Shown: positions 1,758 through 50,530 of the stretch, piece by piece
How positions within the stretch are numbered: position 1 is the stretch's first letter
Layout of the letters: the number at the start of each line of letters is the position of its first letter
NCBI GenBank assembly: GCA_003250355.1
Contig: QKGS01000007.1
Location: 124,001-188,000, forward strand
Source: Bacteroidota bacterium
Lineage (GTDB): Bacteria > Bacteroidota > Bacteroidia > Bacteroidales > SZUA-534
Direction: 5' to 3'
Length of the DNA stretch: 64,000 nucleotides
Position numbers and translations under genes: made by a program
Notes under the pieces: model-generated
What the model was told of the DNA's origin: nothing
What the model saw: only the letters and a program-made list of their open reading frames with translations
Database searches by the model: none

Positions 1758-1768
1758 AGCCCGAGTAA

Positions 1769-4573: not shown

Positions 4574-4576
4574 TGT

Positions 4577-7156
4577 TTAATCTATTTTAATACCCATTAC
4601 TAAAATATCGTCTATTTGTCGGTTATCACCTTGCCATTCATTTAATTTTCGTTCTAGTTCGTTCTTTTGTTCACTCATTTCTTTAGTGCTTATTTCAGTA
4701 AGAATTTTTCTGAAATTACTTGTAAGTAAGCGTCGTCCGTGTTCTCCTCCAAACTGATCTTGATATCCGTCTGATGCAATATAAAGAACATCGCCGGGTT
4801 GCAGGTCAATTGAGTGACCGGTAAAAGGTACTTCATCAAAAGGAATGCTGCCAATTTGCATTTTTTCCGATTCATATTCGGCAAGTACATTCTCACGTAC
4901 TAGATAGAGAGGGTTCTCGGCACCTGCAAAATCGAGTTTGTAGTTTTCAAAGTCGAATATGCACAATGCGCAAACCATACCGTCCGACGATGTAGTGCTT
5001 TTATCGGGTAGGTATAGCGCTTTTTTAATTTTAACTCTAAGTATATTTAAAATATCAGCAGCATCTTTAAATGTGTTTTTACTAATTATTTCATTAAGCA
5101 TAGTTACTCCCAACATACTCATAAATGCTCCGGGAACACCATGTCCGGTACAATCAACAGCAGCAACTATCGATTTGTTTCCAACTTTACTCATCCAGTA
5201 AAAATCGCCACTTACTATATCACGTGGCTTGTAAAATATGAAGTGATTCTTCAGAACCTCGTTTTGAATCTCTTCAGGTGGTAGTACTGCACTTTGTATT
5301 TTGCTTGCATATTCTATACTGTCGGTTATTTTCTTGTTCTTTTTTTGAATATCATCGCGTTGTGCTTCAATTTCAGAGTTCTTTTGTTCAAGCAATTCAT
5401 TAGCTTTTTTAATGATTTTATTTTGGCGGGTAATAAATATTACAAATAGCCCGGCAATAAGTATAACTGCTAAAATTGAGTAAATAAGTATTTGTTGGCG
5501 GCGGTTTTTCTCTTGTTGCTTAAATAATTGTATATCTTTTATTTTTAGTTCTTTTTCCTTTTTTTCGGTTTCATACCTTATTTGCATATCGGCAATTTTT
5601 TTAATGCTTTCTGTGCTAAGTATTTTATCATTCAGTTTTATGTAATCGGAAATGTATGTATATGCAACAACATAATTACCTGTTGCTGCATTTGCATTGG
5701 CAAGTTCAAACAGAATATCTTTTTGCAGATTTATATCTTTTTGTTTTTCAGCTATCCATAAAGCTCTGTTAAAAAGAGGTATGGCCAGATTGTACCGTTT
5801 TTCAGAGAGGTATAGTCTACCTAAATCGAGCGAAGAATTTGCTTCGCCATTAAAGTCTGATATGTCTTTACGTGCCGATAAAGCAAGCTTAAAATAATTC
5901 TCGGCAGCATCAAATTCGTTAAATTTCAAGTGAAGATTACCAATATTATTCATAGTGGCAGCAACGCTTTTCATGTCGCCAAGTTCCTGATATATATTCA
6001 ATGCAAAATCGTAATGTATAAGAGCACTATCTCTTTTTTCCATACTCTTGTATACAAGTGCAATGCTATTGTGAGAACGGGCTGCATATTTTTTGTCGCC
6101 GGTTACTTTGCGGAGAGCTAATGAGCGTGTGTATGTATTTAACGATTTTTCAAAATCTTTACTCTGCCAGTAAACACCGGCAATAAAGTTAAGTGCATTT
6201 GATTCTGAAAATTTATCGCCCGTTTTTTTATACAATTCAAGTGATTGGTGAAAATATTCCAGTGCCTTTTCATAGTTGCCTAAGTCGCGGTATATTAATC
6301 CAATATTGTTGCTTGTTGCAGCTATTTCAGTCATGTTATGTTCTTGTTCTCTAATTTCAAGAGCTTTCAAATAATTTGCCAATGCTTCTTTGTAGTCCTT
6401 ATATTGCCAGTAAACACCACCCAAATTATTGTACAAACGGGCAAGCATAGAATTATCGCCTTCGGGTAATATATCTATTGATTTTTGTATATACGAAATA
6501 GCAGCTTCAATATCGTTGTTGCGTTTATATAGTGTAGCTATATTATTGTATGTTGCTGCAATTGACGATGAGTCACCTAGCGATTCTCTTATTTCAAGAA
6601 CCTGCTTATAAAAACTCATGGCTGAGTCATGAAGATTCTGTGTTAAAAAAACATTGCCAATATAATTCAACGTATTAGCAAGCTCTTCTCTATTATTTCT
6701 TTTTAACCAAAAACTATTAGCTCTAAAATAAAATTCAAGTGCGGTTTTATAATCGCCTATACTGTTGTATGCTAAACCTAAATTATTTAATATGTGTGCA
6801 TATTTTTCGTTGTTTTTATCATTTTCAAGTAATTGAAGTGCGTTGGAGTATTGCTGTATTGCTTGGTCAAAATCGCCTGTTCGCCAGTAAACTCCACCTA
6901 AGTAATTAAGTGAAGTGGCTTGTCCTTGAATATCAGATAATTCTTTGTAAATATTTAATGCTTCTATGTGTTTGTCAATTGCCTTGTCGAGTTGTCCTGT
7001 GTTGCGTAATTCAACACCTACTTTATTAAGCATATATGCTTTGTCCTGAATATTATAGGTTGTATTTAATTCTTCTTGTAATTGTTCAAGTGTTTGGTTA
7101 AATGCTGTATTACAAAATAGAAGAATTAAGGATAGGGTTATTAGGTGCTTTATCAT
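4577..7156 (-). CDS. TPR protein with C-terminal SpoIIE/PP2C serine phosphatase domain
   Basis: 859 residues, first gene of a three-gene minus-strand operon. A signal-like N-terminus is followed by about 12 TPR units (~30-500), a transmembrane helix (~555-575, LIYSILAVILIAGLFVIFI), a coiled coil, and a PP2C-type phosphatase domain (~630-859). Metal-binding motifs of the SpoIIE class are visible: RDIVSGDFYW, VAAVDCTGHGVPGAFMS, YIASDGYQDQFGG and DDILVMGI. Such phosphatases dephosphorylate Ser/Thr-phosphorylated partner proteins. The divergently transcribed neighbour encodes a SiaC-family phosphoprotein, the known substrate class of the PP2C protein SiaA in Pseudomonas. No HPt or kinase domain is present, so a SiaB-like kinase must be elsewhere. 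Confidence 0.9.
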   Translation of the reverse strand: MIKHLITLSLILLFCNTAFNQTLEQLQEELNTTYNIQDKAYMLNKVGVELRNTGQLDKAIDKHIEALNIYKELSDIQGQATSLNYLGGVYWRTGDFDQAIQQYSNALQLLENDKNNEKYAHILNNLGLAYNSIGDYKTALEFYFRANSFWLKRNNREELANTLNYIGNVFLTQNLHDSAMSFYKQVLEIRESLGDSSSIAATYNNIATLYKRNNDIEAAISYIQKSIDILPEGDNSMLARLYNNLGGVYWQYKDYKEALANYLKALEIREQEHNMTEIAATSNNIGLIYRDLGNYEKALEYFHQSLELYKKTGDKFSESNALNFIAGVYWQSKDFEKSLNTYTRSLALRKVTGDKKYAARSHNSIALVYKSMEKRDSALIHYDFALNIYQELGDMKSVAATMNNIGNLHLKFNEFDAAENYFKLALSARKDISDFNGEANSSLDLGRLYLSEKRYNLAIPLFNRALWIAEKQKDINLQKDILFELANANAATGNYVVAYTYISDYIKLNDKILSTESIKKIADMQIRYETEKKEKELKIKDIQLFKQQEKNRRQQILIYSILAVILIAGLFVIFITRQNKIIKKANELLEQKNSEIEAQRDDIQKKNKKITDSIEYASKIQSAVLPPEEIQNEVLKNHFIFYKPRDIVSGDFYWMSKVGNKSIVAAVDCTGHGVPGAFMSMLGVTMLNEIISKNTFKDAADILNILRVKIKKALYLPDKSTTSSDGMVCALCIFDFENYKLDFAGAENPLYLVRENVLAEYESEKMQIGSIPFDEVPFTGHSIDLQPGDVLYIASDGYQDQFGGEHGRRLLTSNFRKILTEISTKEMSEQKNELERKLNEWQGDNRQIDDILVMGIKID

Positions 7157-8210: not shown

Positions 8211-9677
8211 ATGAAAAAAATAACAGTATCAATAATAGTTGCTTTTTTAATTATTGTGAGTGTATATGCTCAAAGTCCGGAAAAAATTAGTTATCAGGCT
8301 ATAATACGTAATAGTACCGGCGAACTAATTAAAAGTAAGTTGGTGGGAGTGCAAATAAGTATTTTGTATGGAAATTCTAACGGGAAGGTAGTATATTCTG
8401 AACTTCATAATTCAGAAACCAATGAAAATGGATTGCTTACTTTAGAAATAGGAACAGGAGTAACCGGATATAATTTTTCTGAAATAGCATGGTCTACCGG
8501 CGACTATTTTATAAAAATAGAAACCGATATTACCGGTGGCAATAATTATACTATTGCCGGAGTAAGTCAGTTGTTAAGTGTACCTTATGCATTATATGCC
8601 AAAGAAGCAGGGAATATGCCTGATGTAAGTGGCTTTGCAAATATAACGGCATTAAATGATACAGCTGCGAGTATTCGTTCCAATATGTTTAGTGGCAATT
8701 ATAATGAATTGATAGAGAAGCCCGATTTGTTATTAATGCATTTAAATACAAAGGCAATTCAAGATACAGCTTTTCAAATAAGAGCTGACATTCCAAATGT
8801 CAGCAGATTTGTTACAACTGGAGCACTATCAGATACTATTGAGAGAATTAATGCAGAACACGCAAAAGCTATTGCCGATACTACATTATTATTACTTACA
8901 TATATTAAAAAGCTTGAGTCGGTTTTATATCAGGTTTCAGAACCTCAGGCATTATTCAATGCAGGGGTTAGTATTGATGATATTGTAGCATATATGAAAG
9001 ATGGGGCTATAATAAAAAATGGACTTGTAGATACTCGTGATAATAATAAATATTCGGTTCTAAAATTGGGTAGTCAGTTGTGGATGTCTGACAATCTTGC
9101 TTATTTGCCTCATGTTCATAATAATAGTGAGTTTATATCAAAAGGGTCATTAGCTATGCCGGCATATGGTGTTTATGGATATAATGGCAATGATATGTTA
9201 ATTGCAAAGGCTAATTCATATTATTTGGAATATGGGGTGCTTTATAATTGGTATGCTGTTAATACCGATAGTTTATGTCCGGCAGGATGGCATGTTCCAA
9301 CCGATAATGAGTGGATAATTCTCGAAACATATTTATCGGCAAAAGGTTACAATTATGATAGTACTATTGGTGCAGGTAGTAGTAAAATAGCAAAAGCAAT
9401 GGCTTCTACAGTTTTGTGGAATGTGTCAACAACTAGCGGAGCCGTTGGTTCTGACTTAAGTATTAATAATGCAAGTGGTTTTTCGGCACTTCCCGGAGGA
9501 TACAGATTGGGAACCGATGGTACATCGCACAATGAGGGAAATCATGCATATTTTTGGAGCATTTCAGAGAGTGGAGTCGATGTATTAAGCCGACTTATAA
9601 GTTATAATAATGCAGGGGTATCGAAAGGGAGTAGTGCAAAAACATTGGGATTATCGGTTCGCTGTTTGAAAGATTAA
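8211..9677 (+). CDS. Secreted FISUMP-domain protein
   Basis: 488 residues. A signal peptide (MKKITVSIIVAFLIIVSVYA) is followed by a beta-rich N-terminal domain (~20-130, opening QSPEKISYQAIIRN, common in secreted Bacteroidota proteins), a helical linker, and a C-terminal FISUMP domain (~270-488; Fibrobacter succinogenes major paralogous domain). The FISUMP signature includes GSQLWMSDNLAY, GVLYNWYAVNTDSLCPAGWH and a final LGLSVRCLKD. The domain's biochemical role is not established; it is found in surface and secreted proteins. No T9SS sorting tail is visible in this protein. A T9SS substrate follows. Confidence 0.85.
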   Translation: MKKITVSIIVAFLIIVSVYAQSPEKISYQAIIRNSTGELIKSKLVGVQISILYGNSNGKVVYSELHNSETNENGLLTLEIGTGVTGYNFSEIAWSTGDYFIKIETDITGGNNYTIAGVSQLLSVPYALYAKEAGNMPDVSGFANITALNDTAASIRSNMFSGNYNELIEKPDLLLMHLNTKAIQDTAFQIRADIPNVSRFVTTGALSDTIERINAEHAKAIADTTLLLLTYIKKLESVLYQVSEPQALFNAGVSIDDIVAYMKDGAIIKNGLVDTRDNNKYSVLKLGSQLWMSDNLAYLPHVHNNSEFISKGSLAMPAYGVYGYNGNDMLIAKANSYYLEYGVLYNWYAVNTDSLCPAGWHVPTDNEWIILETYLSAKGYNYDSTIGAGSSKIAKAMASTVLWNVSTTSGAVGSDLSINNASGFSALPGGYRLGTDGTSHNEGNHAYFWSISESGVDVLSRLISYNNAGVSKGSSAKTLGLSVRCLKD

Positions 9678-9773
9678 TTTACACCTTATAGCCGAATGAG
9701 ACCAGTGTTTAAATGAGACATTGTTAATTACGTAGTGCTTTTAGAGGGTATTAGAAAGAAAATCAAAAAGCAA

Positions 9774-10325
9774 ATGAGAAAGAAAATACTTTTAGTAGTA
9801 GTATTTATATTACCTATAATAGGACTGCTTGCTCAGACACAAGTAACTGCAGGGGGAGGCGAAGCCTCAAGTAGTGCCGGTATAGTTAGTTACTCCGTAG
9901 GGCAAGTAGCATATCAAAGCTACATTACCAGCAACGGAACAATAGCCGAAGGTATTCAGCAAGCCTACGAGATTTCAACCTTAATAGGCATAGAAGACAA
10001 AACTATAAGCCTTGTGCAAGTAGTGTTGTACCCAAACCCTGTAACCGATTATCTGATACTCTCGGTAAAGACGCAAGATATTGCGTCTCAGAAACCGCAA
10101 GATGTTGCGTTTCAACAGACTCAAGATATTGCGTCTCAACAATATATTACATCGCAGCAATTGCAATTTCAATTGTATGATTTGCAAGGTAAATTAGTAC
10201 AAAGTCAAAAGCTGACCGATAGCGAAACTCAGATAAATATGAGAGGGTATGTGCCGTCAACTTATTATATTAAAGTAACATTAGAAAATAAGTTGGTTGA
10301 AGAATTTAAAGTAGTTAAGAATTAA
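9774..10325 (+). CDS. T9SS type A sorting-domain protein
   Basis: 183 residues from the ATG at 9774, chosen because a signal peptide begins there (MRKKILLVVVFILPIIGLLA); an upstream GTG at 9735 would add a charged extension. The short mature part (AGGGEASSSAGIVSYSVGQV) is typical of small T9SS substrates. The C-terminal domain (~85-183) has the marks of type A sorting domains: VVLYPNPVTDYLIL, QLYDLQGKLV, and a final strand ending EEFKVVKN. This domain directs export through the Por/T9SS machinery. Three 8-residue QD(I/V)A(S/F)Q repeats interrupt the domain between its first strands; they derive from a palindromic DNA repeat described separately. Confidence 0.85.
   Translation: MRKKILLVVVFILPIIGLLAQTQVTAGGGEASSSAGIVSYSVGQVAYQSYITSNGTIAEGIQQAYEISTLIGIEDKTISLVQVVLYPNPVTDYLILSVKTQDIASQKPQDVAFQQTQDIASQQYITSQQLQFQLYDLQGKLVQSQKLTDSETQINMRGYVPSTYYIKVTLENKLVEEFKVVKN
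10069..10136. repeat. Three tandem 24-bp palindromic units inside a T9SS sorting domain
   Basis: The first unit is a perfect inverted repeat, AGACGCAA-GATA-TTGCGTCT (10069-10088). A second (10091-10113, GAAACCGCAA-GATG-TTGCGTTTC) and third (10117-10136, AGACTCAA-GATA-TTGCGTCT) are degenerate copies. The centres at 10077, 10101 and 10125 are exactly 24 bp apart, so each unit adds eight codons without changing frame. Similar GAGACGCAA..TTGCGTCTC palindromes are, from memory, a dispersed repeat type in some Bacteroidota and cyanobacteria. Confidence 0.8.
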
Positions 10326-10384
10326 ATAAGAATGGAACTGGCTCAGTTTTGCTCTAATTACTACAGATAATTAATTTAGATATA

Positions 10385-10416
10385 AAAAAAGCCTGCTCCA
10401 AAAGAACAGGCTTTTT
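10385..10416. terminator. Bidirectional intrinsic terminator between T9SS gene and rplI
   Basis: AAAAAAGCCTG (10385-10395) pairs with CAGGCTTTTT (10407-10416) across an 11-base loop. A-run and T-run flanks allow it to end both the plus-strand secreted-protein transcript and the minus-strand ribosomal operon. Confidence 0.85.
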
Positions 10417-10435
10417 ATATGTTATGAATAATTAA

Positions 10436-10882
10436 TTATTCTGAAACTACCTCAAAAGGAATTTCAAATTCTACTTCCTTGTGAAGTTTAATTTTAGCTA
10501 CAAACTCACCAACTTCTTTAATAGCCTCGCCTTTAAGAAGGATGTTTTTACGGTCTACGCTGTAGCCTTGTTTGTTAAGTGCCTCAGAAAGCTGAATATT
10601 GTTAACTGAACCGAAAATTTTACCTGTTGAGCTGGTTTTTGCACCAATAGTAATTTTCACGTCAGCTAATTTAGCTTTAAGTTCAAGAGCTTCGTTTTTG
10701 ATTTTCTCTTGTTTATGAGCAGCTTGTTTCATATTCTCAGCCATAACTTTTTTAGCCGAATCGGTTGCTAAAATAGCTAGGCCCTGAGGAATAAGAAAGT
10801 TTCTGCCGTAACCGTCTCTAACAGTTACTATGTCGTTTTTGTATCCTAAGCTAGGAATGTCTTGCTTTAATATGATTTCCAT
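10436..10882 (-). CDS. rplI: 50S ribosomal protein L9
   Basis: 148 residues, normal length for L9. The N-terminal domain motif LGYKNDIVTVRDGYGRNFLIP is split by the family-typical glycine and asparagine positions, followed by the long connecting helix and the C-terminal domain (TGKIFGSVNNIQLSEALN). It binds 23S rRNA near the L1 stalk base. Third gene of the rpsF-rpsR-rplI operon, ending at a bidirectional terminator. Confidence 0.97.
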   Translation of the reverse strand: MEIILKQDIPSLGYKNDIVTVRDGYGRNFLIPQGLAILATDSAKKVMAENMKQAAHKQEKIKNEALELKAKLADVKITIGAKTSSTGKIFGSVNNIQLSEALNKQGYSVDRKNILLKGEAIKEVGEFVAKIKLHKEVEFEIPFEVVSE

Positions 10883-10900
10883 TTCTTCGTTCCTCCCAGA

Positions 10901-11170
10901 TTATTTAAACATATCAGTTACATATGGCAATAAAGCAATATGACGTGCTCTCTTAACTGCTGTTGACACTTTGCGTTGGTATTTTAACGAAGTACCGGTA
11001 ATACGACGAGGAAGAATTTTTCCTTGTTCGTTCAAGAATCTTTTTAAGAATTCAGGATCTTTATAATCGATATACTTGATCTTGTTTTTCTTAAAACGGC
11101 AGTATTTTTTCTTTTTAATCTCAACCGATGGGGGAGTTAAATATCTGATTTCTGATTGATTTTGTGCCAT
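10901..11170 (-). CDS. rpsR: 30S ribosomal protein S18
   Basis: 89 residues. The body [17 protein letters not shown] and the C-terminal RHIALLPYV are diagnostic of S18, which pairs with S6 on the 30S platform. The N-terminus carries a lysine-rich [20 protein letters not shown] stretch typical of bacterial S18. It sits between rpsF (3 bases upstream) and rplI (18 bases downstream); no ssb or priB lies between rpsF and rpsR, unlike in Firmicutes or Enterobacteria. Confidence 0.97.
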
Positions 11171-11173
11171 GAT

Positions 11174-11521
11174 TTATTCCTCCGCTTTTTGTTGTTTCAA
11201 ACTTCTTTTCTTCTCAGCGTAAGCCTCAGCATGCTTGTCGAGCTTTACTGTAAGGAAACGCATGATTCTCTCATCACGACGATACTCTGTTTCTAACTTG
11301 TCGATAGTTGTAGCAGGAGCTTTGAACTCAACTAAGTAGTAAAAACCTGTTGATTTTTTTTGGATAGGGTAAGCTAACTTACGTAGTCCCCAGTCCTCTT
11401 CGTGTACTATCTTTCCTTCCATTTCTGAGATAATACCTTTAAATTTGTCAACCGCTTCCTTCATCTGCGGAGCAGATAAAACGGGATTAGCAATGAAAAC
11501 GGTTTCGTAACTGTTTAACAT
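11174..11521 (-). CDS. rpsF: 30S ribosomal protein S6
   Basis: 115 residues, first gene of the operon. The S6 ferredoxin-like fold is recognisable from [12 protein letters not shown], the [20 protein letters not shown] strand pair and [14 protein letters not shown] near the end. The C-terminus is a short charged tail. S6 binds S18 and 16S rRNA. In many bacteria an S6:S18 complex represses its own operon through a leader hairpin; the leader here is only about 40 bases, and I cannot identify that motif with confidence. Confidence 0.97.
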
Positions 11522-11562
11522 ACTTTACGTTTTTTAATTAGTAAAATTTTATTTTCGGGGTG

Positions 11563-11593
11563 CAAATATATGAATAATACCATTATATTCAAA
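11563..11593 (-). promoter_or_regulatory. Promoter of the rpsF-rpsR-rplI operon
   Basis: Read on the minus strand, TTTG (11593-11590) and TATATTTG (11570-11563) are separated by 19 bases, an exact Bacteroidota -33/-7 arrangement, with C following the -7 box. The leader to the rpsF start is about 35-40 bases. Confidence 0.7.
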
Positions 11594-11650
11594 CACTTTA
11601 CATATAATTATTTGTGTTTTGTATATATTTGGCTCAGTTTAAATGAAAGT

Positions 11651-12526
11651 ATGAAACAATTTATTAGAAAATGTCTGTTTTTTTTGGTGCCGTTTCTATT
11701 ATTTGTAGGTATAACACTTTCGGTTTATTTTATTAGAAAGGAAAGCATTTTATCACAAATAAATAGAATATCGCAAGCAACGTGTTTGTTAATTGGCGAT
11801 TCTCATATAAAACGATTTCATGAAGATTGGTTTGGAGTTAGAGCTTATAATTTCTCAAGTTTTGGAGAACCATATTACATAACATATGAAAAGCTCAGAA
11901 GAGTATTGTTAGTAGATAGTTGCAAAGTTAAAACTGTAATTGCCGGTGTTTCATTTCATAATTTTACTCCGGTATTTTATCGATTAATGAACTTGAATTT
12001 TCCGGAAGGCAGAAGTTGTATTGAACGTTATCATTACTTTCTTGATGTAAATAATTCATTGTACAAAAGCAATGAGATTATGAGCCGGGAATATATCAAG
12101 GGTATTTATAGTAAACCCGATATGGGAGGTTTGTTTTATTCCGACAGATCAAATCCCGATTCGTTAGATATATTGAGAACTGTTAATAGCCATTATAGTT
12201 ATGAAACAGAAAAGGAGCTTGATTATGGTAATCAGTTAATGTATCTATTGAAAATAGACAGTATATGTCATGTATATAATATTGACCTTTACTATGTGGC
12301 TACACCATATCACCGTATTTATATAAATAATGTAGAAAGACATTATTTCGATAATCTTAGTTTAGTGCTTAATAAGGTGGAGTATGGTAGATTTATTAAT
12401 TTATATACTCAGGGAATTAGTTCTGATTATATGGCCGATGCCGATCATTTGAATTTTAAGGGAGGTGAAATTATTGCTAAAATGTTAGTCGATTCTATAT
12501 CTTTATATACTTCAACACCATTTTGA
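11651..12526 (+). CDS. Membrane-anchored SGNH-hydrolase-like protein
   Basis: 292 residues from the ATG at 11651; an in-frame ATG at 11570 is rejected because it lies in the divergent ribosomal promoter and would precede the natural membrane anchor. One transmembrane helix (~7-25) is followed by an extracytoplasmic domain. LLIGDSHIKRF fits block I of SGNH hydrolases (GDS serine), and DADHLNFKGGE near the end fits the block V Asp-x-x-His pair. Such proteins often add or remove acyl groups on envelope glycans; the substrate here is unknown. The stop lies four bases before the ECF sigma factor gene, so the three genes probably form an operon. Confidence 0.65.
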   Translation: MKQFIRKCLFFLVPFLLFVGITLSVYFIRKESILSQINRISQATCLLIGDSHIKRFHEDWFGVRAYNFSSFGEPYYITYEKLRRVLLVDSCKVKTVIAGVSFHNFTPVFYRLMNLNFPEGRSCIERYHYFLDVNNSLYKSNEIMSREYIKGIYSKPDMGGLFYSDRSNPDSLDILRTVNSHYSYETEKELDYGNQLMYLLKIDSICHVYNIDLYYVATPYHRIYINNVERHYFDNLSLVLNKVEYGRFINLYTQGISSDYMADADHLNFKGGEIIAKMLVDSISLYTSTPF

Positions 12527-40223: not shown

Positions 40224-40400
40224 TCAATTAATGTAAACAGGTACAATGTAAATTTAAAAAAATCATTTAATCAAAAAAAAAAAAATGTATAAAAGACTAT
40301 TATAGGCTAAAAAAATACGTTGATTGGAAATATATTACTGTGAATTTGTTAAATTGCCATCTTAATACTATATAATTATTGTAACGTGAAAACAAATTGT

Positions 40401-42512
40401 ATGATCCGAATATTTGTAAGTTTTGTATTATGTGCTTTTTTGAGTATTTCGTCAATGAATGCTCAAATAACAAGAGAAGCTTATGAAGAGGCTGAATTAT
40501 ATCTTGATAATGAAAGATATCATAAAGCATTAGAGTTATATAAAGAATTATTGAAAGATGAGCCCAATAATGCAAATTTGAATTTTAAAGTTGGATACTG
40601 TTTTTTGCAGACAGCTACAATGAAAACACAAGCTATTTCATTTTTGGAATTTGCAGTAAAACATATTAGTGATGATTATAATCAGGATGATTATAAAGAA
40701 ACAGCTTCACCATTAGAGGCAATGTTTTATTTGGGTAAGGCATATCATGTAAATTATAGATTTAATGATGCCAAAAAGGTGTATTCTGAATTAAAAGGAA
40801 AACTTGATTCTGATGAAACTGAGTTATTGGCATTGATAGAAAGAGAAGAGCAAATATGTAAAAATGCGATAGAGTTAGTGGCGGCTCCAATTGAAATGGA
40901 CGTTACAAATTTAGGTAAGAACATTAACTCTGCGAATGATGAACATAGTCCGGTAATATCAGGCGATGAAAGTCTTTTGATATTTACATCGAAGCGTACT
41001 GACAATACCGGTGATAATGAATTAGATGATGGTCAGAAGTATGAAGATATTTACATAAGTACATATACCGACAATGGTTTTTCAAAGGCTAAAAAAATAT
41101 CGGGTGAAATTAATACTTCAAAGCACGATGCTTCAATAGGTTTATCGTTCGATGGAACCAAACTGTTTATTTACAGAAGTGATGACGGAGGCGGTAATAT
41201 TTATATGAGTGAAAGGAACGGAACCGAGTGGGGGACTCCCCAGCTTCTTCCTCCGGTTATAAATAGTAAATATAGAGAGACTCATGCTACAGTTTCGTTA
41301 GATGGGAATGAGATATATTTTTCGTCAGACAGAAAAGGCGGTTATGGTGGTCTTGATATTTACAGGGTAAGAAAATTGCCCGATGGTCAATGGAGCAAGG
41401 CACAGAACCTTGGACCGTCAATTAATACTGTATATGATGAAGAAGGCGCATATTTGCATCCCGATGGAGTAACATTGTTTTTTGCATCAAAGGGACATAA
41501 AACAATGGGGGGGTACGATATTTTTGTTAGTAACCTTTCAGAGGATGATAAGTGGTTAACACCTGTGAATATAGGTTATCCAATAAACACCCCCGATGAC
41601 AATGTTTACTATATGCCGTCTGTTGACGGGCGAAGAGCATATTATGCATCGTTCAATAATAATAGTATAGGACGATATGATTTATTTAGAATAGATTTGT
41701 CGGAAAGCCATGTTAGAAATCAGACAGTTATAGCAGGTATTGCAATGACCAAGAGTGGTAAGATGTTGAAAAATGCATTTATTACTATTACAGATACCGA
41801 TGATGAGGTTGTAGGAATATATACTCCCGATTCAGAAACCGGTAAATTTCTGATTATTTTACCAAAAGGTAAAGAGTTTTATGCAACTATAGAATCGGAA
41901 AATCATAGAGAATTACAATATAAAATGGTTGTTCCCGACGATTCGTATGATCAAAGTAAGAGAGTTGTAATATTCAACGATATAGTTACTCTTTTGAATA
42001 AGGAAGACGATATGAAGGCTGTTGTGGGTAAAGATGAAAAAGGTAAAGCGGATGTTCAAGTAGCAGAAAAACAAAAGAATACAACATTGGGCGATGCCGA
42101 AAGAAAACAAAAAGTTGTTGAACAAGAGGGAAAATATACAGAAAAATCACATAGTGAAAGCATTGATAGTAAGGTTGCAGAATCTAGTAGTTTAGTAGTA
42201 CAAAGTGATGAGGGAAAAGTCCATGATACGAAGAATTATTCAGAAGAAGAAGATGGGTTGGTGTCATCGAAAGAGAAGGATTTAGAAGGGTTAGTAGGTG
42301 CGTTGGTTACAGACGAAATGATAAAGGATGTTTTAGATAGTACAAATCAGCCTGTTGATGATTTGAGCGCAGGAAAAGGCAAACGAGTATCAGGGGAGAA
42401 TGTAAAAGGGATAAGTAATTCAATTAAGGAGAAATGGTATTTGTATTTGTTGGCACTTATTGCACTGTTTTTATTTTCTCGCTTAAGTAAAAGAAAACAA
42501 AGAAGAGATTAA
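40401..42512 (+). CDS. TPR/PD40-repeat envelope protein with C-terminal membrane anchor
   Basis: 703 residues from ATG 40401 (a GTG at 40386 is also in frame). Signal peptide, then two or three TPR units (~20-140), PD40 beta-propeller blades (~170-440; SPVISGDESLLIFTSKR, ATVSLDGNEIYFSSDRKGG, GAYLHPDGVTLFFAS), a carboxypeptidase-regulatory-like beta domain (~450-540), a charged low-complexity region and a C-terminal transmembrane helix. It is a paralogue of the next gene but lacks the OmpA domain. Such architectures occur in T9SS-associated PorE-like proteins and other envelope proteins; direct function is unknown. Confidence 0.8.
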   Translation: MIRIFVSFVLCAFLSISSMNAQITREAYEEAELYLDNERYHKALELYKELLKDEPNNANLNFKVGYCFLQTATMKTQAISFLEFAVKHISDDYNQDDYKETASPLEAMFYLGKAYHVNYRFNDAKKVYSELKGKLDSDETELLALIEREEQICKNAIELVAAPIEMDVTNLGKNINSANDEHSPVISGDESLLIFTSKRTDNTGDNELDDGQKYEDIYISTYTDNGFSKAKKISGEINTSKHDASIGLSFDGTKLFIYRSDDGGGNIYMSERNGTEWGTPQLLPPVINSKYRETHATVSLDGNEIYFSSDRKGGYGGLDIYRVRKLPDGQWSKAQNLGPSINTVYDEEGAYLHPDGVTLFFASKGHKTMGGYDIFVSNLSEDDKWLTPVNIGYPINTPDDNVYYMPSVDGRRAYYASFNNNSIGRYDLFRIDLSESHVRNQTVIAGIAMTKSGKMLKNAFITITDTDDEVVGIYTPDSETGKFLIILPKGKEFYATIESENHRELQYKMVVPDDSYDQSKRVVIFNDIVTLLNKEDDMKAVVGKDEKGKADVQVAEKQKNTTLGDAERKQKVVEQEGKYTEKSHSESIDSKVAESSSLVVQSDEGKVHDTKNYSEEEDGLVSSKEKDLEGLVGALVTDEMIKDVLDSTNQPVDDLSAGKGKRVSGENVKGISNSIKEKWYLYLLALIALFLFSRLSKRKQRRD

Positions 42513-42553
42513 TTTTTTGTTGTTTTTTTTGATTTAGAATAAATGAAAACTAT

Positions 42554-45253
42554 ATGAATAAATTATATGCGGTAATATTGCTTTTGTTGGTAGTATCAGC
42601 AAAAGCTCAAGATACAAAAGAGGTAAAATTATTGTTTCAGGAGGCAGAGGAACATTTGTTATATGAAGAATATGATTATGCCTTGCCAAAATTTAAGAAA
42701 CTAACAGAGTTGGGATTAGATAATTCAAATATTAATTTCAGTATAGGGATTTGTTATTTGAATATGCCGGGAATGGTTGAAAATTCTATTCCGTATCTTG
42801 AAAAAGCAAGCCAAAATGTGTCAAAAAATTATATGGAGGGTAATTATAAGGAAGATAAGGCTCCAGAGGAGGCTTATTTTTATTTGGCAAAAGCTTATCG
42901 TTTAACTAGAAATTATGATAAGTCGATTGATGTGTATAAAAAATACAGGGCAGAACTTTCTCCAACCGATGTATATTATCTTGATTTCTGCGATTTGCAG
43001 GTTAGAACTTGTGAACAAGCTAAAAAGCTTGAAGCAAAGCCAATTGTTTTTACTCAGAAAGAAGCTGATTTTTCAATTGCGGAAGAGTGTTATAATCCGG
43101 CAATGTCAGGTGATGGTAATTCGGTTGTGTTTACTTCAATGCAACAGGTTAAAGATGATTATACCGGGGAGAAGCTTTGGTTTGAAATAATAAACTATTC
43201 AACAAAAACAGCAGTAGGGTGGTCTGAGCCTAAAGATTTGTCGATTCAATTAGCATCTGATGGTTACTATTCAACAACTTTTTTGAATTATACAGGTGAT
43301 TATATGTTATGCTATAGAGATGATTATGGTAATGGCAATATATATTTTTCGGTTTTGGAAGGTAAACAATGGTCGAAATTGGAAAAATTACCCAAGCAGA
43401 TTAGCTCTCGTGGAAATGAAACCCATGCAAGCTTGACAAGAGATGGTAATACAATGTATTTTACCAGTGACAGAGAAGGAGGAATAGGAGGGAAGGATAT
43501 ATACAGAGTTAGCAAAGACGGTAGTGGAAAATGGGGAAAACCGGAGAATTTAGGAGAAGGTATAAATACTCAGTTTGAGGAAGAAACACCATTTATTAAT
43601 GCTGATGGAACAATATTATATTTTGCCTCGGAGGCTCATACAAGTATGGGGGGGTATGATATTTTTAAGTCGACATTGAACTCTGATGGAACATGGTCTC
43701 AGCCACAAAATTTGGGGTATCCTGTAAACACAGGTAGAGATGATTTGTTTTATTATCCGTTAGAAGATGGCAGTGCCTTGATGAGTGGAGTTTCTGATGA
43801 GGGGAAGTGGCGAATTTATCATATTGAATATCCTAGATATTTACCTCAGCCTGACACTGAACCGGTTGAGGAAGAGGTTCAGGTAACAGAACCAGAGCCG
43901 ATTATTGTTGATGTGAAAAATAATTTGCAGGAGATAGAACCTGTGGTTGAATCTGTTTCACAACCTGAACCAGAGTCGGTAGTTGAATCAGTTCCTGTAA
44001 TAGAAACTGAACCTGTAATTGAAGTGCCTAAGGTTATACTTCCAAGTGAGTATGAATTGCATGGGACTTTATCGTTGCAAGATAACAGTATGTTAAATAC
44101 ATCATTCTATATTCATGTGGCAAAAAGTGATGGTGAAGTTATTGCTTCTTTAAGTCCGTCAGTTTCAACCGGAGAATTTAAAACTGTGCTAAAGCCGGGA
44201 ACATATAAGCTTACAGCTTATGGAACAGGTTATGAAGCAGCTTCGAAAAATGTTGTAATAGATCCAAATCAGCAGAATCCGGAAGTTGTTGCCTTCTTGA
44301 GTATGAGGCCAATTCAGGTTAGTAATGGTGAGTATTATACAATTAAAAATGTATTTTTTGAGTATAATAGTGTAGTTTTGAATCGTGATGCACAAGAAGA
44401 ACTGGAGCGATTGGCTGTTCTAATGAAGAAGAATCCATCATTGTATATTGAGGTCTCAGGACATACCGATAGCCATGGGTCGGAAGATTATAATCTTCGA
44501 TTATCTGCAAAACGTTCACGAGCGGTAATAGATTATCTTCAGGGACGTGGTATAGAGACAAGTCGTTTTGTTGCAAAAAGTATGGGAACAGAGTATTATA
44601 TTGCAATAAATGAAAACCCCGATGGTTCTGATAATCCGGAAGGAAGAAGGTTAAATAGAAGAGCTGAGATGAAAATAATAAAATCGAACTCTGATAAAAT
44701 AACTGTTGAAAATATCTTTGTTCCTGATGAGTTGAGGTATAAAGACCAACTTACTTATACAATATTATTAATGGAAACAGATAAGCCGCTACCATCAACA
44801 TACTTTAGTAAATCGGGAGAGAATATTAATAATGTGTGGATGTTTCAAACAGCATCGGGGTATTTATATACAGTGGGGCAGTTTAAAGAACAGGCTGAAG
44901 CATTGCCGATTATGAATATGGTTGTAGATGCAGGTTTTCCGAAAGCAAGGGTGATAAGCAGTATAGAATACCATGAATTGGTGCAAAAGAGTAGCAATTT
45001 TTACAAGTCGAAAATGAATGAAAGTGACAAAACGGTATATACTATTCAACTGGCAGCATTGGGAACAAAAGCTCCTGCGGGGCGATTTAAAAATATTGGC
45101 GATGTTGATGAGGTGAAGGGTGAGGATGGTTATTACCGATATATTTGGGGTGAATACATAGGAAAAACTTCGGCACGTCAGGCATTAGATGAAGTAGTTG
45201 CAAAGGGGTATACCGATGCGTTTATTGTTTCTATTGAGAAGTTCAGAAATTAA
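42554..45253 (+). CDS. TPR/PD40/OmpA-domain outer membrane protein (PorE-like)
   Basis: 899 residues. Signal peptide, TPR units (~20-140), PD40 propeller blades (~160-410), a Pro/Glu-rich linker (~430-490), a carboxypeptidase-regulatory-like domain, an OmpA peptidoglycan-binding domain (~600-715; EVSGHTDSHGSEDYNLRLSA then RLNRRAEMKI) and a SPOR-like C-terminal region (~740-899). OmpA anchors it to peptidoglycan. The order TPR-PD40-regulatory-OmpA matches T9SS PorE, but the extra C-terminal part and the length (PorE is shorter) leave other envelope roles open. It is 41 bases after its paralogue. Confidence 0.82.
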   Translation: MNKLYAVILLLLVVSAKAQDTKEVKLLFQEAEEHLLYEEYDYALPKFKKLTELGLDNSNINFSIGICYLNMPGMVENSIPYLEKASQNVSKNYMEGNYKEDKAPEEAYFYLAKAYRLTRNYDKSIDVYKKYRAELSPTDVYYLDFCDLQVRTCEQAKKLEAKPIVFTQKEADFSIAEECYNPAMSGDGNSVVFTSMQQVKDDYTGEKLWFEIINYSTKTAVGWSEPKDLSIQLASDGYYSTTFLNYTGDYMLCYRDDYGNGNIYFSVLEGKQWSKLEKLPKQISSRGNETHASLTRDGNTMYFTSDREGGIGGKDIYRVSKDGSGKWGKPENLGEGINTQFEEETPFINADGTILYFASEAHTSMGGYDIFKSTLNSDGTWSQPQNLGYPVNTGRDDLFYYPLEDGSALMSGVSDEGKWRIYHIEYPRYLPQPDTEPVEEEVQVTEPEPIIVDVKNNLQEIEPVVESVSQPEPESVVESVPVIETEPVIEVPKVILPSEYELHGTLSLQDNSMLNTSFYIHVAKSDGEVIASLSPSVSTGEFKTVLKPGTYKLTAYGTGYEAASKNVVIDPNQQNPEVVAFLSMRPIQVSNGEYYTIKNVFFEYNSVVLNRDAQEELERLAVLMKKNPSLYIEVSGHTDSHGSEDYNLRLSAKRSRAVIDYLQGRGIETSRFVAKSMGTEYYIAINENPDGSDNPEGRRLNRRAEMKIIKSNSDKITVENIFVPDELRYKDQLTYTILLMETDKPLPSTYFSKSGENINNVWMFQTASGYLYTVGQFKEQAEALPIMNMVVDAGFPKARVISSIEYHELVQKSSNFYKSKMNESDKTVYTIQLAALGTKAPAGRFKNIGDVDEVKGEDGYYRYIWGEYIGKTSARQALDEVVAKGYTDAFIVSIEKFRN

Positions 45254-45812: not shown

Positions 45813-47045
45813 TTAGTTCTTATTTGGAAAGAACAAACTACCTACAAACCCATAAAAACCGAATAGAATAACCAATACTATTTCTGTAAAATTCTTCTTA
45901 AAACTTTGTTTTTTATGTAATAGTATACTTATGTATAGTATTGTAAAAATGAAGTTAGTTAAGATGATTAAAATGTTTTTTGAGAAAGTAATCTTGAAGT
46001 TTTTATATGAACTTGATGCATTTTTTGTAATTATTTCAAAAGGAAATAATACGCTAAATATTTTACCAAATTGAGCCTCTTCTTTTGATACAAGTATTTC
46101 ATTATGAAATGCAATAGTATTATATAAATCATCAATAATCCAAACTTTTAGTTCTTTATTACTAATAGTAGTAATATTTTTAAAGAAAATATTTTCACTA
46201 ATTCTCAGTTCATCTTTTTCTTGTTCAAAATCTGTTATGGGAAGCTTAATTAGGCTGTAAATATCTTGAATAAGTACATATACATTATTGTTAGAATCAA
46301 ATATAATGGCATAAAATTCTCGTGTTTTGAAGTCAATACATTCAATGTGTGTGATTTTCATGTTATCAGGTGTTTGAATATATTCGAAATAAGGTTGACC
46401 TTTTGTCATTTTAAGATGAAACAGTTTGTTGGTATTGTCTACAATAAAATAACCTTCGTCGATTGATTTTCTTGTGGTAGGAATACCTGCAATAATTTTA
46501 GCAGGAAAAGAGAATCCTTTATTTATAAATACCTGATTGAAAAGCTTACTTTTTTCTAAGTTAATATCGTTAGTTGACGCTGTAATAAATTCAATACTAT
46601 TGTTTATTCTGAAAAAATCGGGTGGGAGTTCCAGATTAACCCTATCGCTTTCCGATTCAAACAGCGGATATAATCCAATGTTATGAACAAACATATTTTT
46701 AGGGGTGTATTTATATCTGTTTGTATTGAAATGTATAGCATGAACATCGGTGTGTACTCCCATAATAGAATCGGGCATATTCCCATTTCGTATTAGTTGG
46801 TTAGTATAAATAAGCGGCAATAGTTGCTCATATTTATTTTTAGTAAGAGTATCACCATTAGAATTTGTTCTTACTGGTATTTCGTTATTAAATCTGATAA
46901 ACAGAAATTCATTGGAAACACTACTGTATTCTATTACAGGAATTCGGATATGCTTTTCAAATATTAACCAATACAATGCCGGCATTGTATATGCCAGACA
47001 AATAATAGTGAATAATATAAGTATATATCGGCTAGTGTTGTACAT
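45813..47045 (-). CDS. Membrane-anchored protein with large extracytoplasmic domain (possible DUF4857)
   Basis: 410 residues: an N-terminal transmembrane helix (~7-27), a ~310-residue extracytoplasmic domain of mostly beta strands, then two more helices near the C-terminus (~350-370 and ~385-402). No motif is recognised. It is the last gene of a four-gene minus-strand operon with an ABC ATPase, ABC permease and membrane ferredoxin, the relative place occupied by NosD-like or accessory proteins in Nos-type systems. I recall DUF4857 as a possible family name, but I cannot confirm it. Confidence 0.65.
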   Translation of the reverse strand: MYNTSRYILILFTIICLAYTMPALYWLIFEKHIRIPVIEYSSVSNEFLFIRFNNEIPVRTNSNGDTLTKNKYEQLLPLIYTNQLIRNGNMPDSIMGVHTDVHAIHFNTNRYKYTPKNMFVHNIGLYPLFESESDRVNLELPPDFFRINNSIEFITASTNDINLEKSKLFNQVFINKGFSFPAKIIAGIPTTRKSIDEGYFIVDNTNKLFHLKMTKGQPYFEYIQTPDNMKITHIECIDFKTREFYAIIFDSNNNVYVLIQDIYSLIKLPITDFEQEKDELRISENIFFKNITTISNKELKVWIIDDLYNTIAFHNEILVSKEEAQFGKIFSVLFPFEIITKNASSSYKNFKITFSKNILIILTNFIFTILYISILLHKKQSFKKNFTEIVLVILFGFYGFVGSLFFPNKN

Positions 47046-47713
47046 TAAATATCTCCTTTTCTAAATCGTGTAATTGGATATATTATAGTGAGTATTGATA
47101 TAATAGGTATGAATGATATTTTAAGAATATAGAAATTATGAATGCCAAGAGAGTTGTTATTGTAGAATAGTGAGAAAAGAATAGCGGATATGCAGATAAA
47201 CAATATTCTGTATCTCCAGTTGTTTTCAAGTATTATAATTGACGATAAGTAGTATGTTGTATATGAACTTAAAAACCATAAAGATAAATTTTCAATAGCA
47301 GCAAAAGTAATATTTACAGGAAGTAGAGCATTGTTTGTGATTATAAATAACACATAAAAAAGAGAAAATAAGAAGGATAAAGCGATAGTACCCCAAAGAT
47401 GCATAGTCATAAGGAGTTTGTTTTCATTTGCCGGAAGGTGTAAGGTTAGTTTTATTTTTTTGTTTATAATTTCAGGCATATACTGCGATATAGCTAATAC
47501 AATACCAATAAAGGCTGGAATGTATTTTAGATCATTAAAATAAATAAATCTGAAATATAGTAGACTAAACCAATATTGTTCTACTCCATTTTTTGAAATA
47601 GAATGTTTTATACTCAAATGTAAATATATACAAGAGGCAATAATAATAAATGCACAGCATATTATTGTATATCGAGTTTTTAGCCATTCTTTATAAAATA
47701 GAGATTTTATCAT
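47045..47713 (-). CDS. ABC-2 type transporter permease
   Basis: 222 residues with six predicted transmembrane helices, beginning KEWLKTRYTIICCAFIII and including LLMTMHLWGTIALSFLFSLF. Small size and lack of large loops fit ABC-2 permeases (NosY/CcmB-like exporters). The gene overlaps the following membrane-protein gene by one base and lies four bases after the ATPase gene, so they encode one transporter. Confidence 0.8.
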   Translation of the reverse strand: MIKSLFYKEWLKTRYTIICCAFIIIASCIYLHLSIKHSISKNGVEQYWFSLLYFRFIYFNDLKYIPAFIGIVLAISQYMPEIINKKIKLTLHLPANENKLLMTMHLWGTIALSFLFSLFYVLFIITNNALLPVNITFAAIENLSLWFLSSYTTYYLSSIIILENNWRYRILFICISAILFSLFYNNNSLGIHNFYILKISFIPIISILTIIYPITRFRKGDI

Positions 47714-47717
47714 GTTT

Positions 47718-48602
47718 TTAATACTTTCCGGTTAATCCAATAAAAATATCTTCAAGATTGAGTTGTTTTTCAGAAATAGAGTTAAAAATAAAATTGTTAT
47801 TATTCAAAATAGATTCTATTTCTTGTTTGTTGCAGAATGAATAGCATTCAATACTTTGGTGTTTCACTTCAGCATTTATCAACAGATTAGAGTGTGGCAA
47901 AGTAAAATTGTTATTTGGAGTATTAATGGTGAATTGTTTAAAGCTATTTGTAAGGTTATTAATACTTTGATGAGTTATTACTTTATTATAATCAATAATA
48001 ATAACATCATCAATAAGCTTTTCCATATCCTGAATAATGTGCGAAGTAGTAAAAATTGTCTTATTTTTTGTTTTTGCATAATCGCGCAGATATTCAACAA
48101 ACAGCCTGCGATATCCAGGGTCGAGTCCCATCGAAAAGTCGTCGAGTATTAGTAAATCGGGGTCTTGAGCTAAAATAAGACCAAGGGCTATTTGTGAACG
48201 TTGTCCGTACGACATTGTTGATATTTTCTGCTTTGGAGCAACATTTAATTTTGACATTAGTTCCCAATATGGTTCTTTTTCCCAGTTGGGGTAGAAACGA
48301 GAATAGAATTTTTCAATCTGTTTTATTGTCATAAAAGAGTATTGAATATGTCCTTCAATAAGGAATCCTATTTTAGCTTTTGTTTTCGGAGATAGTTGTT
48401 GTGTGTTTTCACCATATATTAAGCATTTGCCGGAAGTAGGTTTCAGAAAACCATTCATAATGTTAATAGTAGTAGATTTACCGGTGCCATTTTTACCCAA
48501 AAGCCCTAATATTTTACCTTTTTCAACATTAAAATTCATATTGCTGAAAATAGTTTTATTATTATACTTATGTGTAAGGTTTATGCATTCTATTATATTC
48601 AT
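47718..48602 (-). CDS. ABC transporter ATP-binding protein (NosF-like)
   Basis: 294 residues. Walker A LLGKNGTGKSTTINIM, signature STMSYGQRSQIALGLIL, Walker B PDLLILDDFSMGLDP and the switch histidine in TTSHIIQDMEKL are all present. The C-terminal ~80 residues are a regulatory tail. Together with the downstream permease it would form an exporter or mechanotransmission complex. It is two bases after the ferredoxin-like membrane protein gene. Confidence 0.93.
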   Translation of the reverse strand: MNIIECINLTHKYNNKTIFSNMNFNVEKGKILGLLGKNGTGKSTTINIMNGFLKPTSGKCLIYGENTQQLSPKTKAKIGFLIEGHIQYSFMTIKQIEKFYSRFYPNWEKEPYWELMSKLNVAPKQKISTMSYGQRSQIALGLILAQDPDLLILDDFSMGLDPGYRRLFVEYLRDYAKTKNKTIFTTSHIIQDMEKLIDDVIIIDYNKVITHQSINNLTNSFKQFTINTPNNNFTLPHSNLLINAEVKHQSIECYSFCNKQEIESILNNNNFIFNSISEKQLNLEDIFIGLTGKY

Positions 48603-48604
48603 AA

Positions 48605-50530
48605 TTAATACTTTATGTAATTAGTATGAATATATTCTTCAACATTGCCTTTGGTTGCGAAAACGAAAGGATTTTGAATTTTTTTTACTACTCCATTGCT
48701 ATAAGTGATTGTGAGATTGTCGGCGTTAATAATTTTAAATATTTCTGTAGGGTTAATTGCAGTATCGATATATGTTATGTTTGCATAAAGGTATCCTAAA
48801 GAATCAATTGTTGTTCTAAATTCTATTATGTTTTTGTTTTGTGAAATATGACTAATGAACCAATTGGTATTGCTTGCATTTGAATTATTGGGCATGGGTG
48901 TAATGTAGTACTTTAAAACATTATGAGTGTATTTTGAGAAATTATTAAAAGTTTGATGGTGCAAAAGATTTATTTTTGAAAAATAATCAGTTTGGCTAAT
49001 CATAACAGGTTCCTCATTATAAGAAACAACTCTTATATTTGACTTCTCGTATTGAGGTAAATTATTATTTGTTTCGATAAGCTTAATTATATATTCAATG
49101 TTAAAAATATGCTGAGAATATATATTTAAAATAACCGGGCAACCATATTCCGATATAAACCCGCAAATATTGTCATTGCTTTCAAGAATAAGCTTTAAGT
49201 TGTAGTTATCTTTTGTGTCAAATAGCCCTTCAACCCCCATGCTGTATTCGTAAATTGTGTTTATTGAATCATTTAGCTGTTTTAACGATTCTGCTATAGG
49301 GGTGAAAATTCCCTTTTTTATTTGATCGGAGCTTATAATATCAGGGTTGTATGTTATTTTAACTTTTCGCTCTTTTACAAATGTTGCAACGCCATAAATA
49401 CCATTCTGCTTTTTCATTTTAGCCGAAAAAGCTTTGGAGCTGCCATAGCATTTTATATTATCAAGACCATTAATTATTAGAACTTGGCTGTTGCTCATTT
49501 CTGTTTTTGTACCCCATTTCTCATTAATCGTAGGAATATCCCATTTATTTGCAAAAATAAATCCGGCAATAGTAAGCACTACTGTAAGTATTGCCGGTAG
49601 CCATTTATAATTTATTACAGATAGTCTTAATGCTTTTTGCTCCGGACACGAATAAAGGCAGTCGCCACAAAGGTTGCAGTCAATATGGTTTACTTTTTTA
49701 AATGATGTAATACTTATGTTTTGATGACATATTTTATTGCAAATATTACAGCTTGTGCAATTTGCATGATTCCGAATAATTTTAAAAGGAGAAAGATTAA
49801 ATCGCGTTGTAAAAAACAATTCTATTACAGCACCGATTGCGCATATAGTAATAAGTACATAAGTATATTTTATATATACCCCTTTATAATACAAAAAAAA
49901 GAAAACTGCTCCTATGGGGATAAATATCCAGTAGTGTTTTAGAATATTTGACAGAGCCGATAAGGGGCATAGATATTTACACCAGTATAGTTTTGAGAAT
50001 ATAGATGAGACTACAAAAAATATTGAAACTAAAGAAAATATAATTACTACCTCATAGCTGAACCCTGATGCTAAAGCATAGAAAGGGTCATATTTTTTAC
50101 AAAAAAGTTCGCTTGATTTAAGAGTAAAGAAAAATGTTATAAAGAGTAATAAGTACTTTAATAATCTTAAACCAGAATCGGCTTTTTGTGGAATGTTAAT
50201 GTTGAAATTAAAGTGTTTCCCGATTTTCGATAAAAGCTCACTAATAGAACCTATGGGACATATAAAGCTACAAAATAGTTTACCTAAAAGAATAACACAA
50301 ATAATTAATATTACTCCCATAAATATTTGAGTACCTGTCATAGAACAGGCCAGTGTGTTATTCAACAAATAGCTTGAAAGTGACTGTATTCCTCCAAAAG
50401 GGCAGTAGGCTTCAAAATCGACATTGGTATTAATAGCGAAAAATGATGCAATTAGAAGATAGCACAGATATAAAATAATAGAATATTGTAATAACCGGCG
50501 TAGAATATTTTTGTTATGTCTATTTTGCAT
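48605..50530 (-). CDS. Membrane-bound 4Fe-4S protein (NapH/NosR-like) with HMA-like domain
   Basis: 641 residues, first gene of the operon. Four to six transmembrane helices (~15-300) contain the CP motifs SFICPIGSISE and KYLCPLSALS that are typical of NapH/NosR/CcoG membrane proteins. Two 4Fe-4S cysteine sets follow (CTSCNICNKICHQ and CNLCGDCLYSCPE), then a helix and a soluble ~300-residue part with an HMA-like fold (VLIINGLDNIKCYGSSKAF..VTYNPDIISSDQI) that retains only one cysteine. It probably transfers electrons between quinones or redox partners and the periplasm, possibly for metal handling. Confidence 0.85.
   Translation of the reverse strand: MQNRHNKNILRRLLQYSIILYLCYLLIASFFAINTNVDFEAYCPFGGIQSLSSYLLNNTLACSMTGTQIFMGVILIICVILLGKLFCSFICPIGSISELLSKIGKHFNFNINIPQKADSGLRLLKYLLLFITFFFTLKSSELFCKKYDPFYALASGFSYEVVIIFSLVSIFFVVSSIFSKLYWCKYLCPLSALSNILKHYWIFIPIGAVFFFLYYKGVYIKYTYVLITICAIGAVIELFFTTRFNLSPFKIIRNHANCTSCNICNKICHQNISITSFKKVNHIDCNLCGDCLYSCPEQKALRLSVINYKWLPAILTVVLTIAGFIFANKWDIPTINEKWGTKTEMSNSQVLIINGLDNIKCYGSSKAFSAKMKKQNGIYGVATFVKERKVKITYNPDIISSDQIKKGIFTPIAESLKQLNDSINTIYEYSMGVEGLFDTKDNYNLKLILESNDNICGFISEYGCPVILNIYSQHIFNIEYIIKLIETNNNLPQYEKSNIRVVSYNEEPVMISQTDYFSKINLLHHQTFNNFSKYTHNVLKYYITPMPNNSNASNTNWFISHISQNKNIIEFRTTIDSLGYLYANITYIDTAINPTEIFKIINADNLTITYSNGVVKKIQNPFVFATKGNVEEYIHTNYIKY

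Follow-up and report, generated by a model that had tools for sequence, protein, structure and literature searches.

A conserved operon encoding an iron-sulfur membrane protein and an ABC-DUF4857 module in Bacteroidota: candidate inner-membrane half of a TonB-dependent metal acquisition system

The window, by which we mean the whole stretch of 64,000 nucleotides that was analyzed, carries a four-gene operon on the minus strand, running from 50530 to 45813. Its genes lie at most four bases apart, as the initial annotation had stated, with gaps of 2 and 4 bases followed by a 1-base overlap, and encode the following products:

48605..50530, minus strand: FER, a NapH-like Fe-S membrane protein of 641 aa
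47718..48602, minus strand: ABC ATPase of 294 aa, of the DrrA/GldA/NosF/ABCA type (ABC-2 class)
47045..47713, minus strand: permease of 222 aa, a small integral membrane protein and partner of the ATPase
45813..47045, minus strand: DUF4857 protein (PF16149) of 410 aa

A gene for a DUF349 protein is located 50 bases upstream on the same strand and was not a conserved neighbor of the operon among the loci examined. Promoter-like matches around the operon were no commoner than in shuffled sequence. Elsewhere in the window, three TPR proteins are encoded side by side on the minus strand (507-7156), two of them as fusions with a histidine-kinase ATPase domain and a SpoIIE phosphatase domain, and two similar adjoining proteins that, as read from their sequences, look like PD40-repeat proteins are encoded on the plus strand (40386-45253), the second of which seems to have an OmpA-like part.

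The assignment of FER to the NapH/NosR-type Fe-S proteins, made at the outset, was supported by two Fer4_5 stretches and a 4Fe-4S dicluster region in Pfam, with NapH/MauN as the best and NosR as the second NCBIfam model, both far below their cut-offs. FER has about seven transmembrane (TM) helices and a NapH-type polyferredoxin core composed of two CxxxCP motifs (C87/C91 and C184/C188) and two [4Fe-4S] motifs (within C258-C295, on the predicted cytoplasmic side), in which all twelve cysteines align with, and are common to, NapH-like proteins. Hydropathy and charge suggest that the Fe-S motifs are cytoplasmic and that the last 300 residues are periplasmic. The same pairs of motifs characterize the cupric reductase CcoG and NapH, and FER is likewise a probable metal reductase; beyond these proteins, FER possesses a tail of three predicted HMA-fold domains and four conserved residues on the predicted periplasmic side (C43, C62, M64, and C144). 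These four residues and C361 were absent from the aligned sequences of the five closest NapH-like proteins and therefore mark the FER family. The fifteen core and extra cysteines, together with C361 (87/88), were kept in 87 to 88 of 88 homologues.

In the structure model of FER (mean pLDDT, 83.5), the tail forms three consecutive beta-alpha-beta-beta-alpha-beta units (residues 349-415, 425-504, and 539-609), for which the top structural matches were Atx1, CCS, and ATP7B (rmsd 2-3 Å over about 70 residues), with Z scores of 7-8 that are modest and show the fold only; the rmsd between MerP and an HMA unit was 1.7 Å. The one-cysteine HMA-like domain recognized initially was thus confirmed and extended to three units, of which the first alone contains a cysteine (C361, in KC[YF]GS). 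None of the units carries the MxCxxC metal-binding motif, and FER gave no Pfam HMA match. No expression or biochemical data on the FER form were found in the searchable literature.

The ATPase shares 53-63% identity with typical Bacteroidota relatives, and the permease matched no Pfam family but shows the invariant motifs KEW, PE, and HLP. The 410-residue protein, described at first as unrecognized, belongs to DUF4857 (PF16149; 267.7 bits against a cut-off of 25; E = 1.3e-79). Structure prediction, which the initial annotation had proposed as a check, yielded a model (pLDDT, 88.4) with one TM helix at the N terminus and two at the C terminus, between which some 310 residues form the large outer domain that had been anticipated. 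The fold of this domain was left unnamed because it is only partly beta-propeller-like (Z up to 9.0 over 145-175 residues), and sequence searches identified no solved structure related to DUF4857. ATPase, permease, and DUF4857 genes were adjacent and in this order at 58 of 60 loci and constitute a fixed module. In three genomes (L055:5006-7048, L056, and L057), permease and DUF4857 make up a single fused polypeptide of 660-680 aa (profile E about 1e-29), strong evidence that the two proteins form one complex. At one locus (L074, genome G557, 8551-12388), two permease-DUF4857 pairs come after a single ATPase gene, an arrangement that would suit a heterodimeric permease, and another (L080, genome G461) has two neighboring DUF4857 genes. 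A search for plasmid-borne DUF4857 found none.

A lack of joint conservation, named initially as a refutation, was not what the loci showed: besides the near-constant module, FER stood in the cluster at roughly one in two of the FER loci with good coverage. Across a phylum sample of 395 genomes, FER was found in 12, DUF4857 in 15, and both in 9 (Fisher p = 1.8e-12), and the two co-occurred weakly in the sample of the order (5 of 19 FER genomes; p = 0.08). FER distances correlated with those of DUF4857 (r = 0.95) and the permease (r = 0.94), values that are uncorrected for shared species history. Among the 42 well-covered FER loci, meaning those of at least 18 kb, the ABC module was present in 22 and outer-membrane genes in 25; the remaining 17 had neither partner set, so FER can work without them. 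Eight Lentimicrobium-like loci (L140-L143, L148, L152, L154, and L158) have FER homologues without any uptake gene, in a repeated neighborhood of proteins of 258, 99, 370, 340, and 705 aa.

The gene-neighborhood survey, the other check proposed initially, revealed recurrent partners at DUF4857 loci and at the FER loci of named genomes: a TonB-dependent receptor (TBDR), DUF4876, DUF6850, and a YCF48/BNR beta-propeller protein that is often T9SS-secreted. DUF4876 is a lipoprotein with an invariant lipobox-type cysteine, for which the search led to a solved but uncharacterized lipoprotein (4q1z); phmmer found no solved relative of the host-genome TBDR. The cluster LIPO-ECF-Spy-antisigma-FER-ATP-PERM-DUF4857-TBDR-DUF4876-DUF6850 and its rearrangements occur in Bacteroidales and Calditrichota, the latter with the order TBDR-DUF4876-DUF6850-BNR-ATP-PERM-DUF4857-FER (L134 and L153). 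The TonB receptor is encoded with the module in one cluster in these relatives; in the host genome, the same four partner genes are contiguous on another contig, C1 (BNR-TBDR-DUF4876-DUF6850), so the four-gene operon is one half of a system split over two contigs. These partner genes are well supported. A ZIP-family metal transporter gene (L085:4300-5106) lies on the same strand of contig C1, about 430 bases upstream of this set. Neither half, nor any of five relatives, gave an Rfam match when a riboswitch (B12 pointer) was sought.

Bacteroidales clusters often have, upstream of FER, genes for a CYG-motif lipoprotein, an ECF sigma factor, a Spy/NccX-like protein whose tail is rich in cysteines, and an anti-sigma-like protein. 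This arrangement of sigma factor, Spy-like sensor, and anti-sigma-like protein resembles CnrYXH/NccYXH, although the NccX match is weak (E = 0.095) and no such regulators adjoin the operon in the window. An isolated relative of the FER-associated lipoprotein is encoded on host contig C82 (L197:9354-9758), with SYG where CYG is conserved and a cysteine two residues past the motif. At several loci (L086-L088, L092, and L100, and also L097, L101, and L113), an RND efflux operon ending in a gene for a small P-II-like PG0541-family protein lies just before FER or its regulators; a copper link through these pumps (L086-L113) was rejected, as multidrug models outscored CusA.

The closest published counterpart is the B. 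thetaiotaomicron locus BT3625-BT3633 (DUF4857, ABC ATPase, PepSY-TM, DUF4876, and TBDR), which rises 37- to 128-fold in iron depletion, and low iron likewise raises the expression of a P. gingivalis DUF4876-TBDR locus, by 21- to 215-fold (PMC10434189). According to the published annotation, BT3625-BT3633 shares its ATPase, DUF4857, DUF4876, and TonB receptor families with the system described here, and its gene order recurs in the gut-type DUF4857 loci examined; it differs in forming a single cluster, in carrying PepSY_TM genes in the place of FER, and is known from its expression response alone (PMC10434189). FoxB-type PepSY_TM proteins reduce ferrisiderophores, and in B. pertussis the polyferredoxin CcoG and a PepSY_TM protein serve as parallel routes, both being putative metal reductases (PMC13038864). 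The FoxB/CrpH PepSY_TM proteins are inner-membrane reductases encoded with a TonB metal receptor, as FER would be, but they are heme-based and of unrelated fold. That FER occupies the position of PepSY in the gut relatives suggests, by analogy, a reductase role. Strict exclusivity of FER and PepSY was rejected, since both are present at a few loci (L048, L049, and L155).

The initial annotation had likened the operon to the Nos system. The outline of this comparison stood: in NosR and NosDFY, too, an Fe-S membrane electron protein accompanies an ATPase of the ABC-2 class, a permease, and a third subunit facing the periplasm. However, neither NosD nor NosZ nor the flavin domain of NosR is present, and the operon is linked to a TonB receptor. 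DUF4857, which has TM helices of its own, occupies the position of the third subunit instead of the beta-helix protein NosD; FER gave no FMN_bind match up to E = 1, and the NosR model matched only its TM/CxxxCP region (37.6 bits; cut-off, 1000). The Nos analogy is superficial. The lack of a nitrous oxide reductase, noted initially, holds genome-wide, with no nos_propeller match in the host genome (99.98% complete) in a search that matched six other genomes. Neither COX1 (heme-copper oxidase) nor a PepSY_TM_like_2 reductase was found there, whereas FeoB was present in all 30 genomes with DUF4857 and/or FER, including the host. This inventory favors iron over cuproenzyme maturation, without proving it.

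Taken together, the operon is, somewhat more likely than not, the inner-membrane half of a TonB-dependent system for the acquisition of a metal, most likely iron, with the outer half on contig C1. The envelope maturation or export system proposed initially thus stands as a conserved operon that is electron-linked and probably metal-related; maturation or cofactor export is not supported, and acquisition fits better because the partners are a TonB receptor, DUF4876, and DUF6850 and because the related locus of B. thetaiotaomicron responds to iron starvation (PMC10434189). In such a system, the TonB receptor, the DUF4876 lipoprotein, and DUF6850 would bring a metal complex into the periplasm. 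FER would accept electrons, supplied either by the quinone pool or by a cytosolic donor, and pass them through its cytoplasmic [4Fe-4S] and CxxxCP motifs to a periplasmic site formed by C43, C62, M64, C144, and C361, where the metal would be reduced and leave its ligand. ATP hydrolysis by the ATPase, acting with permease-DUF4857, would move the periplasmic DUF4857 domain, thereby freeing the metal or expelling the empty ligand or spent chelator, and the reduced metal would enter through the inner membrane via a general importer, for instance FeoB. The small PepSY_TM proteins of gut relatives would take the place of FER. We infer in this scheme the metal, the direction of transport, the reductase activity, and the mechanical role of the ABC part. 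More tentatively, and with some doubt on our part, FER as reductase and the ATPase, permease, and DUF4857 as an ABC mechanotransmitter may form a previously undescribed two-membrane machine that strips the metal from the TonB-imported complex, with electrons and ATP replacing an importer that uses a substrate-binding protein. The system is best read as new in composition and of a known kind in outline. Against this reading, besides the weak co-occurrence in the order sample, the FER loci that lack both partner sets, and the loci with both FER and PepSY, the iron data come from relatives without FER (PMC10434189), the upstream regulators in FER-type clusters look, by the weak NccX match, like metal-excess sensors, and three conserved HMA domains with one cysteine are unusual for a metal site.

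Copper-centre maturation or delivery in the manner of NosRDFY or CcoG is an unlikely reading, in which FER would reduce Cu(II), the HMA domains would pass on Cu(I), and the ABC part would supply sulfur or move copper. The best structural matches of the HMA folds are indeed copper chaperones, the FER core is NapH/NosR-like, and TonB copper importers accompanied by reductases exist (PMC12914433, PMC13038864). In the 11 FER genomes tested outside the host's order, heme-copper oxidases were found in all and NosZ in 6, but the host genome has neither COX1 nor NosZ, and COX1 is mostly absent from the DUF4857 genomes of its order. Moreover, FER has a single cysteine where HMA chaperones have CxxC, and the B. 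thetaiotaomicron relative responds to iron (PMC10434189).

It is similarly improbable that the ABC module exports a metallophore, lipid, peptide, or drug, the loaded compound being taken up by the TonB receptor while FER serves another redox task. The ATPase does belong to the DrrA/ABCA/ABC-2 export class, and export followed by re-uptake is usual for siderophores; however, no biosynthesis genes were recognized among the neighbors scanned, and the permease-DUF4857 fusion and the large outer domain suggest a dedicated machine. The odds are poorer for a Fus-like system (TonB receptor, M16 protease, and ABC) in which metal would be obtained from a captured protein and reduced by FER upon release. 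At L046-L050, an M16 protease gene separates DUF4857 from FER or directly precedes FER, and secreted T9SS-type beta-propeller proteins are neighbors, but most clusters lack M16, including those of Bacteroidales and Calditrichota, and none lies beside either half in the host genome. Thiol-redox repair of the envelope, with FER electrons passing not to a metal but to the lipoprotein encoded upstream, at its cysteines (C56/C103 in L078), is very improbable: the lipoprotein adjoining FER in relatives has two universal cysteines and FER has extra ones on its periplasmic side, but the host lipoprotein lies far off on contig C82 with its first cysteine position lost, and the TBDR and ABC proteins would be left unexplained.

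The acquisition reading unites three domains of unknown function (DUF4857, DUF4876, and DUF6850) with an orphan family of Fe-S proteins as one system with a testable role for each. The ABC-DUF4857 module is among the loci strongly induced by iron starvation in a common gut bacterium and has had no function assigned. If the reading is true, machinery of the ABC-2 class would be able to serve metal uptake, and an iron-sulfur reductase could substitute for the heme-based PepSY reductases.
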